From Muriicola soli (lineage in GTDB: Bacteria > Bacteroidota > Bacteroidia > Flavobacteriales > Flavobacteriaceae), in the NCBI RefSeq assembly GCF_004139715.1, contig NZ_CP035544.1, positions 1,488,001-1,552,000 of the forward strand: DNA of 64,000 nt, read 5' to 3'. Positions 38,708-44,325 of this stretch are shown here, one piece after another. The notes beneath the pieces were generated by a model, which was given only the letters and a program-made list of their open reading frames with translations, did no database searches and was not told where the DNA came from. The position numbers and the translations under genes are program-made. Position 1 is the stretch's first letter. Each line of letters starts with the position of its first letter.

Positions 38708-39370
38708 ATGACCAAATCTGAAAAGGTAGAATTTGTCGTCAATAAACTCAACGAGTTATATCCTGAAATTCCTGTACCACTGGAACACAAGGATCCTTAT
38801 ACCCTGCTTATTGCCGTATTACTTTCTGCGCAAAGTACAGATGTCAGGGTAAATAAGATCACACCGCTGCTTTTTGAAAGGGCCGATAATCCTTTTGATA
38901 TGGTTAAACTCACCGTGGAAGAAATCAGAGAGATAATAAAACCCGTGGGTTTATCCCCCATGAAATCCAAAGGGATCCACGGCCTGTCTGAAATTCTCCT
39001 GGAAAAGTATTCAGGAAAAGTACCTACGGATATTAAATTACTGGAAGAATTACCGGGAGTTGGCCATAAAACAGCAAGTGTAGTAGTCTCACAAGCTTTT
39101 GGAATCCCCGCTTTTCCGGTAGACACTCATATTCACCGCCTAATGTACCGTTGGTGTTTCTCTACGGGAAAAAATGTAGTACAAACTGAGAAAGATGCAA
39201 AACGTTTATTTCCTAAAGAACTCTGGAATGACCTTCATTTACAGATCATCTGGTATGGCAGGGAATATTCTCCAGCACGTGGGTGGGATCTCGATAAAGA
39301 TGTGATCACCAAAACAATTGGCAGGAAAAAAGTGATTAATGAATATTTGAAGAAGAAAAAAGCCCGCTAA
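38708..39370 (+). CDS. nth: Endonuclease III, Fe-S-cluster-less form
   Basis: A 220-residue DNA glycosylase/AP lyase for oxidised pyrimidines. The helix-hairpin-helix LEELPGVGHKTASVV has the catalytic lysine K121, and the catalytic Asp is D139 (VDTHIHRL). The usual C-terminal Cys-rich [4Fe-4S] loop is absent. The end reads WYGREYSPARGWDLDKDVITK, and the only cysteine in the protein is C150. So no cluster can form, though catalytic residues are intact. The stop codon sits in the loop of a terminator used by the facing sigma-factor unit. Confidence 0.93.
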   Translation: MTKSEKVEFVVNKLNELYPEIPVPLEHKDPYTLLIAVLLSAQSTDVRVNKITPLLFERADNPFDMVKLTVEEIREIIKPVGLSPMKSKGIHGLSEILLEKYSGKVPTDIKLLEELPGVGHKTASVVVSQAFGIPAFPVDTHIHRLMYRWCFSTGKNVVQTEKDAKRLFPKELWNDLHLQIIWYGREYSPARGWDLDKDVITKTIGRKKVINEYLKKKKAR

Positions 39371-39378
39371 TGCGGGCA
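39355..39378 (-). terminator. Rho-independent terminator for sigma-factor unit 1, inside the nth 3' end
   Basis: On the minus strand GCCCGC / GCGGGC with a 4-base loop is followed by a U-run. The hairpin includes the last codons and the stop of nth, so a single sequence is both coding end and terminator. Confidence 0.8.
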
Positions 39379-39385
39379 GAGTATT

Positions 39386-39529
39386 TTAGTTCAGAATAGT
39401 ATCAAATCTGAATTTACGGTGTTTTGTAACCCTGAAGGCTTTGGAGTATGACATAAGAAATCGTATAGTTTCTGGTCCTACTTTATGGGCTTCATAGGCA
39501 TTTTCCTTCGTTGAGTAAATTTTTTCCAT
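39386..39529 (-). CDS. 47-residue microprotein paired with ECF sigma factor 1
   Basis: A 47-codon gene 67 bases after the sigma-factor stop. It encodes MEKIYSTKENAYEAHKVGPE, continuing TIRFLMSYSKAFRV and ending FRFDTILN. A second gene of exactly the same length stands in the same place after the other sigma gene. The two products share the start ME-x-IY, a central P-x-T/E-T-x-x-FL-x-x-YSK block and a terminal asparagine. This paralogy is strong evidence that it is translated. It is basic, without membrane segment. Role unknown; regulation of the partner sigma factor is a guess. Confidence 0.78.
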   Translation of the reverse strand: MEKIYSTKENAYEAHKVGPETIRFLMSYSKAFRVTKHRKFRFDTILN

Positions 39530-39596
39530 ATGATTGCTGTGACGTTATGTTAAGATAACGCAACCTATATGGAAATATTGTAACTATTGTTGTGAA

Positions 39597-40181
39597 CTAA
39601 GAATTAGTTAGTACAATATTGTTACGATCAATGATCTTTCTCAGGTTGATTAGTGCGTAGCGCATCCTACCTAAAGCGGTATTTATACTTACACCTGTAT
39701 TTTCAGAAATTTCCTTAAAACTCATATCCTTATAGATACGCATCAGGAGTACTTCTTTCTGATCGTCTGGTAATTCCTCTATGAGAAGACTGAGATCACT
39801 ATCGATCTGGTCTTTTATCAATTGTTTTTCTGCATTCAATTTATCATCTCCGATGACGGAAAATATATTGAAGTCGTCATTCCCTTCAAACTTGGGCATT
39901 CTTTTGTTCTTCCTGAAATGATCGATGATAAGGTTATGTGCTATTCGCATTACCCAGGGAAGGAATTTCCCTTCTTCGCTGTAATTCCCTTTCTTTAAAG
40001 TCTTGATCACTTTAATAAAGGTATCCTGGAAGATATCTTCAGTGACATCGCGGTCTAAAACCTTGGAATAGATAAAGCTGCTTATTCTTTGGTTGTGGCG
40101 GTTTATTAAAACCTCTAATGCCTTTTCATCCCCGCTGATGTAATCGGTAACTAGTAGTGAGTCGTCCCTTTTTGGTTCCAT
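39597..40181 (-). CDS. ECF-type sigma factor 1
   Basis: A 194-residue sigma-70-family factor. Region 2 spans NRHNQRISSFIYSKVLDRDV with following FQDTFIKVI and LPWVMRIAHNLIIDHFR. Region 4 is the HTH DMSFKEISENTGVSINTALG with RMRYALINLRKI. There is no extra C-terminal domain. It is close to the second copy (by eye about two thirds identical), and both end in an IVLTN motif. No anti-sigma gene is adjacent; a 47-residue gene takes that place. The regulon is unknown. Confidence 0.92.
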   Translation of the reverse strand: MEPKRDDSLLVTDYISGDEKALEVLINRHNQRISSFIYSKVLDRDVTEDIFQDTFIKVIKTLKKGNYSEEGKFLPWVMRIAHNLIIDHFRKNKRMPKFEGNDDFNIFSVIGDDKLNAEKQLIKDQIDSDLSLLIEELPDDQKEVLLMRIYKDMSFKEISENTGVSINTALGRMRYALINLRKIIDRNNIVLTNS

Positions 40182-40503
40182 AGTTAGATTTGCTTTTGGT
40201 TACTTGTTAGTTCATCAGCTGGGCTGCGGAACTAAGGTTATTAGATTTATTTGAGTTACTTGTTTTTTAATGACATTCTAAAAGTACCCAAACACCTATC
40301 CTCAGTAAAAACTATGTTGTAAAATGGCCAATTCTTGATGTGAACGAACAATTTCCCAGTTGGAACCCATTTTATCACCACAGAACACGGCTATTTGTAA
40401 CTGTATAAGTCCTGTTAAAAAAAAAAGACACCTTCAAACGAAGGTGTCTTTTTGGCTGCTGTTAGTACGTATCAGTGAATCCCTTTAGAAAAAGGCAAAG
40501 CTT
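40182..40503. other. Spacer between the two sigma-factor units
   Basis: About 320 bases holding the terminator of unit 2 at 40423-40453 and, presumably, the promoter of unit 1. I see no ORF of coding character and no clean -7 element before the sigma 1 start. Confidence 0.55.
40423..40453 (-). terminator. Bidirectional-looking terminator for sigma-factor unit 2
   Basis: AAAAGACACCTTC / GAAGGTGTCTTTT stem with a 4-base AAAC loop; A-run on one side and T-run on the other. It lies 51 bases after the second microprotein gene. Confidence 0.85.
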
Positions 40504-40647
40504 TTAATTCATGTTATTCTCTATAGTCATCCCTTTTACTTTCTGAATGTTCAGGGATTTTGAATAAGCTAGAAGAAAATCAACAGTTTCCTTAGGAGTT
40601 GAAATAAGTTTGCAATGCGTTGCAGGTCTTGTGTAAATCTGTTCCAT
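40504..40647 (-). CDS. 47-residue microprotein paired with ECF sigma factor 2
   Basis: A 47-codon gene 69 bases after its sigma-factor stop. It encodes MEQIYTRPATHCKLISTPKE, then TVDFLLAYSKSLNI and a terminal NNMN. The start ME-x-IY, the FL-x-x-YSK block and the identical length match the other microprotein. It differs in that it contains one cysteine (C12) and a less basic end. A terminator follows. Function unknown; conservation of place argues for a shared function with the sigma factor. Confidence 0.78.
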   Translation of the reverse strand: MEQIYTRPATHCKLISTPKETVDFLLAYSKSLNIQKVKGMTIENNMN

Positions 40648-40716
40648 AATATCTCTTGTTACCTCTAAATAACGTGAGATATAGGGGATCGATGGAATAT
40701 ATCGACCTAAAACGGA

Positions 40717-41298
40717 TTAATTCGTTAAAACAATCTGATTTTTCTCAATGATCTTCCTCAGGTTGATCAATGCATAGCGCATACGGCCTAGAGCGGTATT
40801 AATGCTGACCTCCGTATTTTCCGCAATTTCATTAAAACTCATGTCCTGGTAGATCCTCATGATAAGGACATCCCGCTGGTCTTTGGGTAGTTGTTCAATC
40901 AAAATTTCAAGATCCTGATCTATCTGATCGCTTATCAACTGTTTTTCAGCGTTCAACTTATCATCGGTTAGAACAGAAAAAATATTGAACTCCTTATTCC
41001 CTCTGTATTTTGGCATACGCTTATTACGGCGGAAATGGTCGATGATCAGGTTATGAGCTATTCGCATCACCCAGGGAAGAAATTTACCTTCTTCGTTATA
41101 GGCCCCTCTTTTTAAAGTGCTGATCACTTTAATAAAGGTGTCCTGGAAGATATCTTCGGTAATGGACATGTCCTGTACCTTGGAATAGATATAACTACTG
41201 AGGCGTTGATTGTGTTTGTTGATAAGTTCTTCAATGGCTCGCTCATCTCCGTCGATGTACTGGCGAACAAGGGTAGCGTCGTTAATCGTAGAATGCAT
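40717..41298 (-). CDS. ECF-type sigma factor 2
   Basis: A 193-residue sigma factor. Region 2 shows NKHNQRLSSYIYSKVQDMSI, then FQDTFIKVI and LPWVMRIAHNLIIDHFRRN. The region 4 HTH reads DMSFNEIAENTEVSINTALG with RMRYALINLRKI. I chose the ATG at 41298 (MHSTIND), because an earlier ATG adds 11 residues not shared with copy 1. The two factors keep the same length, strongest in regions 2 and 4. It is divergent from uvrA. Confidence 0.92.
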   Translation of the reverse strand: MHSTINDATLVRQYIDGDERAIEELINKHNQRLSSYIYSKVQDMSITEDIFQDTFIKVISTLKRGAYNEEGKFLPWVMRIAHNLIIDHFRRNKRMPKYRGNKEFNIFSVLTDDKLNAEKQLISDQIDQDLEILIEQLPKDQRDVLIMRIYQDMSFNEIAENTEVSINTALGRMRYALINLRKIIEKNQIVLTN

Positions 41299-41516
41299 AC
41301 AATTACTTTTTTGGTTCAATTCAGGGGCCACAAGGGTACTGTAGGATGTGGCGATTAAAATTCTAAGTCAAAAAAGTAATGTTGCTGTATAGGCAGAATT
41401 GTAATGGATTAACTATCCAAAGATAGAAAAATTCTAAGTCTTCCAACCTGTCGTTTAATTTTTAACATATTTAGAATTGCAGATTAGGCAGACTGGTTAT
41501 TGACTCTTACATATCG

Positions 41517-41524
41517 TATCTTTG
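41517..41524 (+). promoter_or_regulatory. TANNTTTG -7 element for uvrA
   Basis: TATCTTTG, exact consensus, 17 bases before the ATG at 41542. It favours that start over a longer reading beginning at 41500, which would overlap the promoter. Confidence 0.55.
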
Positions 41525-41541
41525 CAACTTTCCAAAGTAAT

Positions 41542-44325
41542 ATGGCAACCATCACAGAAGTAAATCCAAAGGACAATATTGTCATTAAAGGGGCTAAACT
41601 CCACAATTTAAAGGATATTGATGTAGTCATTCCCAGAAATCAACTTGTGGTCATCACGGGCTTATCGGGTTCAGGAAAATCGAGTCTGGCCTTTGACACG
41701 CTTTATGCGGAAGGACAGCGCCGTTATGTGGAAAGCCTTTCGTCTTATGCCCGGCAATTTCTAGGGAAATTAGATAAACCCAAAGTAGATTCTATCAAAG
41801 GAATCGCACCTGCCATTGCCATTGAGCAAAAAGTAAATTCCACAAATCCGAGATCAACGGTAGGAACCAGCACCGAGATCTACGACTATCTAAAGTTATT
41901 ATTTGCCAGGATTGGCAGGACCTATTCGCCCGTCTCAGGCAAGGAAGTAAAAAAACACACGGTCACTGATGTTGTTTCTTTTGTAAAAGGGTTTGAAGAA
42001 AATACAAAATTACTCCTGCTCGCGCCTATAACCATCCCTGAGAACCGGGATAAGAAAAAAACACTACAACTCCTTGCATTACAAGGATACGCCCGCGTCA
42101 AATACGGCGGGGAAGTACATCGTATTGATGAAGATTTGCACGAAACAGTTGGGGATCAGCTTTACCTGGTGGTAGACAGGATCATCAAAAAAGAAGACGA
42201 GGATTTTTTCAATCGGCTGGCCAATGCCGTGGATTCTGCCTTTTTTGAGGGAAAGGGAAATTGCATTATCGAAGATTTGTCCACCGGCAAGCAGACCTCA
42301 TTCAGCAATGCCTTTGAATTGGACGACATCACGTTTCTGGAACCGAATGTCCACTTATTCAGCTTTAACAACCCTTATGGAGCCTGTCCCAAATGTGAGG
42401 GATATGGCGATATTATTGGGATCGATGAAGACCTTGTGATCCCTAAAACCTCCCTTTCTGTCTATGAGAATGCTATTTTCCCCTGGCGGGGCGAAAGTAT
42501 GGGGTGGTACAGGGATCAACTTGTCAATTCGGCTTATAAATTCGATTTTCCCATCCATAAACCCTGGTTTGAACTTACTGAGGAGCAAAAGGAACTGGTA
42601 TGGGAAGGTAACAGTCACTTTATTGGGATCAATAAATTCTTTAAGCAGCTCGAGGACAAGAGCTACAAGATTCAAAATCGGGTAATGCTTTCCAGATACA
42701 GGGGAAAGACGCGTTGTCCGGAATGCAAGGGGAAGCGTCTGCGCAAGGAAACAAGTTACGTTCGAATTAACGGCCATTCTATTTCAGACCTGGTGGAACA
42801 GCCCATCACATTTTTAAAGGACTTTTTTGAAGATATGCCCCTGTCCGATCACGACAGGCAGATTGCGAAGCGCCTCCTTAAAGAAATTAATAGCCGACTA
42901 GGGTTTCTGCTTAAAGTAGGCTTGGGCTATCTCACCCTGAACAGAAAATCGAATACCTTATCAGGAGGTGAAAGTCAGAGAATTAATCTAGCCACCTCCC
43001 TGGGCAGCAGTCTCGTAGGGTCTATGTACATACTTGATGAACCCAGTATTGGCCTGCACCCAAGGGATACGGAAAATTTAATTGACGTACTCTGCTCTTT
43101 ACGTGATCTTGGAAATACAGTTATCGTAGTAGAACATGATGAGGACATTATGAAAGCTGCAGACCGTATTATTGATATTGGTCCTGAGGCAGGGACCTTT
43201 GGCGGGGAGGTAGTCGCCAGTGGTTCCTATGAAGAGATCCTTAAGGCCGACTCCCTTACAGCTTCCTACCTCAACGGAGAAAAGGAGATCTCAGTCCCGG
43301 GAACAAGAAGGAATAGTCCTAATTATGTAAAAGTCTCCGGGGCCAGAGAGCACAACTTAAAAAATATCGATGTGACATTTCCTTTGAATATGCTCACTGT
43401 GGTTACAGGTGTGTCGGGAAGCGGGAAGAGTACCCTTGTAAAGAAAATCCTCTACCCTGCCCTGCTGAAAGAATTGGGAGGTTATGGCAATAAGGCCGGG
43501 CAGCATTCTGGAATTGAAGGTAAGTACAAGGAAATCAAGCAAATTGAATTCGTTGATCAGAACCCTATAGGAAGATCTTCCCGATCGAATCCCGTGACTT
43601 ATATTAAGGCTTATGACGATATTCGAAGCCTTTTTGCAGCTCAGAAACTCAGTAAACTAAGGGGATATCAGGCCAAGCACTTCTCCTTTAACGTAGACGG
43701 CGGGCGCTGTGAAAAATGCAAGGGAGAAGGCGAAATCACTGTAGAAATGCAGTTTATGGCAGATGTGCACCTGGAATGCGATACTTGCAAAGGCAAACGC
43801 TTTAAAAAGGAAGTCCTCGAAGTTCAATTTGAAGGAGTCAATATTGACGATGTACTGAACATGACCATTGATAATGCTTTAGACTTCTTTAAAGAACATC
43901 AGCAAAAAAAGATCATTGCAAAACTTAAACCACTACAGGATGTAGGATTAGGTTATGTGACCCTGGGACAGTCTTCTTCTACCCTGTCAGGTGGGGAAGC
44001 ACAACGGATTAAACTAGCTACTTTCCTTGTTAAAGGGGCCTCAAAGGAGAAAGCGCTTTTTATTTTTGATGAACCCACTACGGGTTTGCATTTCCACGAC
44101 ATTCAAAAACTTCTCAATTCCTTTGATGCGCTTTTAAAGGCCGGCCATTCGGTTTTGGTTATCGAACACAACCTGGAAATGATCAAATCTGCAGATTATC
44201 TCATCGATCTCGGCCCTGAAGGTGGTGATGCAGGAGGCTACCTTGTGGCGGAAGGAACACCTGAAGAAGTTGTCGCTTCCGGAAAGGGTTATACAGCCGG
44301 ATATCTCAAATCTAAACTAGGTTAA
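41542..44325 (+). CDS. uvrA: Excinuclease ABC subunit A
   Basis: DNA damage recognition ATPase of nucleotide excision repair. The 927-residue form starts MATITEVNPKD. Two ABC modules are present. The first Walker A is GLSGSGKSSLAF (40-51), with signature LSGGESQRINLATSLGSSL and YILDEPSIGLH. The second has GVSGSGKSTLVKK with signature LSGGEAQRIKLA and FIFDEPTTGLHF. Zinc-binding pairs are CPKCEG and CPEC in the first half and CEKC with CDTC in the second. Length is normal. Single gene, divergent from sigma factor 2. Confidence 0.96.
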   Translation: MATITEVNPKDNIVIKGAKLHNLKDIDVVIPRNQLVVITGLSGSGKSSLAFDTLYAEGQRRYVESLSSYARQFLGKLDKPKVDSIKGIAPAIAIEQKVNSTNPRSTVGTSTEIYDYLKLLFARIGRTYSPVSGKEVKKHTVTDVVSFVKGFEENTKLLLLAPITIPENRDKKKTLQLLALQGYARVKYGGEVHRIDEDLHETVGDQLYLVVDRIIKKEDEDFFNRLANAVDSAFFEGKGNCIIEDLSTGKQTSFSNAFELDDITFLEPNVHLFSFNNPYGACPKCEGYGDIIGIDEDLVIPKTSLSVYENAIFPWRGESMGWYRDQLVNSAYKFDFPIHKPWFELTEEQKELVWEGNSHFIGINKFFKQLEDKSYKIQNRVMLSRYRGKTRCPECKGKRLRKETSYVRINGHSISDLVEQPITFLKDFFEDMPLSDHDRQIAKRLLKEINSRLGFLLKVGLGYLTLNRKSNTLSGGESQRINLATSLGSSLVGSMYILDEPSIGLHPRDTENLIDVLCSLRDLGNTVIVVEHDEDIMKAADRIIDIGPEAGTFGGEVVASGSYEEILKADSLTASYLNGEKEISVPGTRRNSPNYVKVSGAREHNLKNIDVTFPLNMLTVVTGVSGSGKSTLVKKILYPALLKELGGYGNKAGQHSGIEGKYKEIKQIEFVDQNPIGRSSRSNPVTYIKAYDDIRSLFAAQKLSKLRGYQAKHFSFNVDGGRCEKCKGEGEITVEMQFMADVHLECDTCKGKRFKKEVLEVQFEGVNIDDVLNMTIDNALDFFKEHQQKKIIAKLKPLQDVGLGYVTLGQSSSTLSGGEAQRIKLATFLVKGASKEKALFIFDEPTTGLHFHDIQKLLNSFDALLKAGHSVLVIEHNLEMIKSADYLIDLGPEGGDAGGYLVAEGTPEEVVASGKGYTAGYLKSKLG

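Follow-up and report, generated by a model that had tools for sequence, protein, structure and literature searches.

Two ECF sigma factor genes in the window, the 64,000-nucleotide stretch of the Muriicola soli genome analysed here, are each followed by a 47-codon gene whose product belongs to a conserved family of microproteins, and both the linkage to this sigma factor and a promoter-like element ahead of the small gene recur across the class Bacteroidia. Based on sequence comparison and structure prediction we propose, with moderate confidence, that the microprotein is a reduced anti-sigma factor, composed of a counterpart of helix 4 and a beta-hairpin, which would act in negative feedback with its own sigma factor.

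The layout described in the original prediction, two minus-strand sigma genes each trailed by a 47-codon ORF and a terminator, was confirmed for both cassettes, which measure 796 and 795 bases. In cassette A, the gene of sigma A (194 aa; 39597..40181) is separated by 67 nt from that of microprotein A (47 aa; 39386..39529), and in cassette B the gene of sigma B (193 aa from ATG; 40717..41298) is separated by 69 nt from that of microprotein B (47 aa, with a predicted helix and beta-hairpin core; 40504..40647). The minus-strand terminators comprise six G-C pairs and a T-run in A (39362..39377, also detected on the other strand) and a 14-pair stem and a T-run in B (40422..40453), the consensus scan having returned five terminators in all against 2.5 expected from shuffles. 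Pfam regions 2 and 4 are present in both sigma factors and the region 3 model is absent, as befits ECF sigma factors (Sigma70_r2 at 5.4e-14 for sigma A; Sigma70_r2 at 1.2e-13 and Sigma70_r4_2 at 1.7e-9 for sigma B, scanned as a 204-aa form as the ORF list begins at an upstream GTG). The two sigma factors are 76% identical and thus closer to one another than the third by which they had been thought to differ, and the two microproteins share 28% identity. Neither microprotein has a Pfam or NCBIfam match at E<=1; microprotein B is matched at 1.4e-20 in its own genome by an HMM search in whose query alignment it is itself a row. On the plus strand, the ORF list places a convergent neighbour at 38708..39370, presumably nth-like (endonuclease III), and a divergent neighbour starting from TTG at 41500..44325, which we take to be uvrA-like. 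By eye, a candidate primary-sigma promoter, TTGG-N17-TATCTTTG, can be placed 5' of sigma B on the minus strand (41418..41446). Its downstream box fits the flavobacterial -7 box TAnnTTTG as given in PMC9723704.

Conservation argues firmly that the 47-codon ORFs are genes. A single-query search with microprotein A matched 133 of the 149 genomes of the window's own family at E<=1, its own genome included, which bears out the expectation that similar small proteins exist in other flavobacteria; 126 of these genomes are represented in the set of family loci, two (G127 and G131) in the class set, and five weak matches lie outside both. Two chance matches under 25 bits (L087 and L096) and two copies of the window's own locus (L002 and L032) were left out before counting. 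A recognisable member is present at 124 of the 126 family loci with content (L196 and L197 being those without a recognisable microprotein). Each of these 124 has a sigma gene no more than 400 nt upstream, so that the microproteins do accompany the sigma factors as had been suggested, and a short ORF is indeed conserved behind the sigma gene. The class set comprises 69 loci, of which 67 were used, drawn from 102 matched genomes and with eight of the 69 from the window's own family; here the sigma gene adjoins the microprotein gene in 51 of the 67 loci. An ECF gene in the neighbourhood, as expected of a class I anti-sigma factor (ASDI), is therefore seen in 124/124 family and 51/67 class loci.

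The family microproteins, as delimited by script, are 46-54 aa long, and in 80 Flavobacterium loci every ORF stops at codon 47. Across these 80 loci, codon third positions are the most variable, and the dN/dS ratio, for which the original prediction had named a value near 1 as telling against it, has a median of 0.16 with none above 1 (2,167 of 3,160 pairs used, with dS between 0.15 and 1.2), compared with 0.76 and 1.45 in the shifted frames. Conservation, sigma context and dN/dS together rule out a chance ORF. Class-wide, the microproteins of the 67 loci measure 44-68 aa, with five of 89 aa in addition and further loci reaching approximately 80 aa, and they share a core of approximately P-x-x-x-T-I-x-x-I-L-N-Y-S-K-A-L-x-V, followed in most by L-N at the end.

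What the microproteins may do is suggested by longer relatives in two other families, labelled f4 and f16. An 89-aa form was matched in 10 of 10 f4 genomes, nine at full length and one over the last 39 residues, and a 77-aa form in 56 of 60 f16 genomes, those read out being 72-81 aa long. Overlap of this gene with the sigma gene is seen in 31 of 32 f16 rows (30 genomes) and amounts to 26 nt in 22 of them. Compared by hhalign, the microprotein profile of the family set falls on the C-terminal end of the f16 profile (72.6%, E 3.2e-5), and that of the class set, with f4 included, falls there too (97.2%, E 4.6e-11). When 38 f4 and f16 proteins were compared with NCBIfam, the families matched more than once were three, all of them anti-sigma, matching 8, 5 and 2 of the 38 members with a best E of 2.1e-5, below the curated cut-offs; one member had a weak SigM-family match. 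The Pfam scan of the same proteins returned singletons only and no anti-sigma match, and no anti-sigma factor came up when PDB sequences were searched by profile. No match above a curated cut-off, as would mark an ASDI, was obtained, there being none for the 47-aa proteins and sub-threshold ones for the longer homologues. Judged from their sequences, the f4 and f16 proteins (72-89 aa) look like an anti-sigma-like part placed before the helix that forms the microprotein core. The earlier statement that no anti-sigma factor is present here is accordingly probably wrong, given the anti-sigma-like N-terminal part of these homologues.

Structure prediction points in the same direction. The AF2 model of an f4 protein (mean pLDDT 87.8, pTM 0.56) has helices at residues 7-14, 20-30, 34-53 and 59-71 and strands at 73-79 and 82-88, so that the modelled fold follows the class I anti-sigma plan of helices 1-3, a linker and helix 4 (PMC7406223), to which a hairpin is added. 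Among the 50 of 333 Foldseek matches listed for this model, the top probabilities belong to RslA, RskA and ChrR (0.51-0.54), no E-value is below 0.65, the anti-sigma matches stand at 1.3 or worse, and the best E-values go mostly to ribosomal chains. The helix 1-3 part was modelled in this f4 homologue alone, to which the f16 proteins align. For cassette B, a read-through of sigma factor and microprotein was modelled; after a low-confidence start, the microprotein forms a helix at 236-248 and strands at 249-254 and 257-262, with block pLDDT values of 92, 97, 93 and 88 from residue 231 on. This fold (pTM 0.56) carries no interface measure, and Foldseek aligned it with sigma factors, among which several were taken from complexes with an anti-sigma factor. 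Read against the helix plan of the f4 model, the helix and hairpin of the microprotein would correspond to helix 4 and the added hairpin. The helix 1-3 bundle that precedes helix 4 in an ASDI is absent from modelled microprotein B, which consists of one confident helix and the hairpin; given the missing bundle and scores that all stay below the curated cut-offs, membership of class I is not claimed.

The distribution of the microprotein follows that of the sigma factor closely. With an 86-row alignment as query and a limit of E<=0.01, 160 of the 295 Bacteroidia genomes sampled proved to contain relatives, most of them a single match. In a phylum sample of 198 genomes, for which class labels were given for all but 147 non-matching ones, 31 had a match at E<=0.01; 30 of these are of the same class or nearer, and the sole match marked outside the class is a weak frame with a stop. 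No plasmid copies were found by tblastn of microprotein A against 72,556 plasmid records. At E<=1e-45 the sigma factor itself has a match in 259 of the same 295 genomes, with rare exceptions just one, and on these sequence matches appears to be a near-universal, mostly single-copy ECF factor of the class. As many as 158 of the 160 microprotein genomes also carry the sigma factor, the two exceptions being 80-84% complete, in a count that ignores shared ancestry. Where the sigma gene is not adjacent, it is found elsewhere in the genome, in 16 of 16 class loci; ten of these sigma-distant microprotein genes (L052, L058, L062, L065, L072, L076, L084, L089, L090 and L093) lie beside an ORF that we take to be nth-like, and seven of the ten also have a presumably bcp-like ORF in the stretch. 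ORFs of both kinds also lie near the window cassette, which suggests one ancestral neighbourhood.

In the other direction, the microprotein went undetected in 101 of the 259 sigma-bearing genomes, so that the sigma factor either dispenses with it or is accompanied by a version beyond the reach of the model; some of these genomes may carry f16-like forms that escaped detection. This asymmetry bears on the possibility that the microprotein is a positive partner required by the sigma factor and forming a positive loop, by analogy with RsoA, which SigO needs in Bacillus. The gene order and the ECF-type element described below would fit such a loop equally well, and the part with anti-sigma helices 1-3 is missing from the short forms. 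However, a required partner sits poorly with the 101 genomes without a detected microprotein and with a sigma factor that already has regions 2 and 4, and the longer homologues resemble anti-sigma rather than sigma proteins, the weak SigM-family match being one of 38; we therefore regard a positive partner as improbable. It is likely, judging from the sequence data, that the microprotein regulates the sigma factor, as the original prediction had proposed; in our favoured reading it would do so as an anti-sigma factor.

The gap between the sigma and microprotein genes holds a promoter-like element that had previously been missed. Ahead of microprotein A it reads CAATA-N15-CGTT (39557..39580, minus strand), with CGTT beginning 31 nt before the ATG. 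The same motif occurs within 90 nt upstream of 143 of 208 microprotein genes, and the looser form (C/T)A(A/C)TA-N15-CGTT upstream of 176 of the 208, with 0.2 expected from shuffles. The CGTT mostly lies 28-38 nt before the microprotein ATG, and the spacer is kept in length and variable in sequence, with the same spacing class-wide. At 13 of the 16 microprotein genes without an adjacent sigma gene the element is retained with N15 or N16, which indicates that it goes with the microprotein gene rather than with the sigma mRNA. Just 3 of the 32 rows of f16 genes have it, a rarity that would fit co-transcription of the f16 gene with that of the sigma factor. From its sequence and position, the element is probably a promoter read by the cognate sigma factor.

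An alternative is that the intergenic element acts as an RNA hairpin controlling the sigma mRNA or translation of the microprotein, the peptide being secondary. Segments from the element to the ATG do fold somewhat more stably than shuffles, with a mean z of -1.45 in 103 family segments and -0.77 in 53 class segments against +0.50 and +0.14 in coding-segment controls. Nevertheless, the folds differ widely between loci, the element precedes those 13 genes that lack an adjoining sigma gene, and selection at the protein level is strong, all of which makes RNA control very improbable. A known RNA family was discarded, four Rfam matches at E<=1 having been obtained and none at gathering score, and a hairpin was likewise rejected as the main conserved thing as the fold signal is modest. 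A 'regulatory RNA' of F. psychrophilum, Rfp11 (position 182564), appears under an ECF-type promoter, and as conserved and structured, in Table 2C of PMC9723704; it could be an unrecognised microprotein gene.

Within the window's own genome the strict motif shows no overall enrichment, 18 sites being found against 23 for a reversed control, which rules out a large strict regulon. Leaving the microprotein aside, 17 sites remain, and 5 of them lie 24-59 nt before an ORF of >=100 aa, compared with 0 of the 23 controls (Fisher p 0.009); these limits were chosen after the real sites were known, and a 60-aa limit gives 5 against 2. One of the five stands before L210, a 172-aa membrane-like protein without a Pfam match encoded at 1481473-1481988, approximately 6.5 kb before the window. 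In close orthologues of L210 the motif (N14-17) is kept in 3 of 7, with 0.005 expected per scanned interval, and three more have, by eye, an ACTAT-like box and CGTT; it is found in 0 of 22 distant orthologues. In several of the close orthologues the element overlaps, by eye, a terminator-like hairpin. For a second candidate gene, L213, the motif is kept in 0 of 21 rows besides L213 itself.

These observations bear on a further alternative, namely that the microprotein is made as part of the sigma regulon, makes no contact with the sigma factor and has its target elsewhere, for instance in the envelope or in core RNA polymerase; the linkage would then reflect a shared promoter only. Its gene has an ECF-type promoter element of its own and persists away from the sigma gene, and at least one other gene carries the element in close relatives, as such a reading would predict. 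The near-complete co-occurrence with the sigma factor argues against it, as does the likeness of the microprotein to the C-terminal part of longer proteins that resemble anti-sigma factors and are encoded in overlap with the sigma gene, and we consider action elsewhere unlikely.

The cassette duplication reported in the original prediction is present in the window; it proved to be a property of one lineage and not of the family. Tandem cassettes occur in at least 17 of 124 family loci, a lower bound because the fetched stretches are short. A tree was built on a short alignment of 72 rows, made up of 17 A, 15 B and 40 of 107 single copies, and leaves many forks unsettled; every A and B row belongs to a single supported group (100/99), which also takes in two single-copy rows. 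Within that group neither A nor B forms a clean clade (4 and 3 changes), and one B row sits among the A rows. From these sequences it looks like one old tandem duplication in one lineage, which is the simplest reading. CAATA-N15-CGTT is kept in 17 of 17 A copies. The B copies keep CGTT in 17 of 17, have CAATA in 0 of 17 and a looser -35 box in 5 of 17 (absent in 12 of 17), and 13 of 17 carry GGTC(G/C), in an AGGTCGA-like form, 27 or 28 nt before CGTT, compared with 3 of 124 other copies, at 26 nt. Upstream of microprotein B in the window (40671..40708, minus strand), CGTT lies at 40674-40671 and AGGTCGA at 40708-40702, with no match to the -35 consensus. The AGGTCGA-like element is possibly an activator site, and the changed -35 box and upstream element of the B copy suggest that A and B may answer to different inputs.

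Under the proposed anti-sigma mechanism, the active sigma factor would also transcribe the microprotein gene, using the ECF-type promoter that separates this gene from its own. The microprotein would then bind the sigma factor through its helix-4-like segment, most likely at sigma region 2, and so hinder it from reaching RNA polymerase; the result would be negative feedback. A tandem duplication of the cassette would have occurred in one lineage, with an altered -35 box and a changed upstream element in the second copy. We infer the binding, inhibition by binding and the use of the promoter by the sigma factor from the conservation of the genes, their linkage to and co-occurrence with the sigma factor, the promoter-like element, the selection on the microprotein and the likeness of its core to the C-terminal part of the longer proteins. 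A broader proposition, which we advance more tentatively, is that a class-wide family of very short anti-sigma factors (mostly 44-68 aa, up to approximately 80), comprising helix 4 and the hairpin, serves this near-universal sigma factor, the 72-89 aa forms being relatives that keep helices 1-3.

The short conserved protein and the recognisable promoter-like element offer a testable partner and target for a near-universal ECF sigma factor of Bacteroidia. If the proposal is true, the microproteins would represent a new structural class of anti-sigma factor, would explain part of the 'missing' anti-sigma factors of Bacteroidetes and would bear on the minimum size of an anti-sigma factor. In the open-access literature searched by title and start of abstract, no account of this family came up.

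Among known systems, SigP of Porphyromonas gingivalis (PGN_0274), according to PMC4800418, resembles the sigma factors of the window in length and class, being a 193-aa ECF factor. In NCBIfam, the profiles that fit the longer homologues best are the anti-sigma factor family NF052375 and NF047528 (LIMLP_03685), with matches over residues ~12-60, although at 13.9-24.6 bits against cut-offs of 100 and 200 and with no match for the 47-aa proteins. The class II anti-sigma factor CnrY, which has a short sigma-binding segment, resembles in this respect the role proposed for the microproteins and differs from them in being membrane-bound. The ASDI proteins (RseA, ChrR, RsiW, RslA and RskA) share with the present system a partner gene beside or overlapping the ECF sigma gene and, in the longer homologues, three helices, a linker and a fourth helix together with weak anti-sigma profile matches. 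In contrast, the window proteins are without helices 1-3, carry a beta-hairpin after the helix and, by eye, have neither a zinc motif nor a membrane helix in their 47 residues. According to a survey (PMC7406223), class I anti-sigma factors lie near just 6% of Bacteroidetes ECFs, the control of the rest being left open there. In that survey, domains under 50 aa were set aside as possible class II, so that the window proteins would also have been dropped had the survey's model found them. The same source gives helix 4 as the class I element with the most coupled contacts, made to sigma region 2, and an average ASDI of 101 aa, compared with 47 aa in the window.
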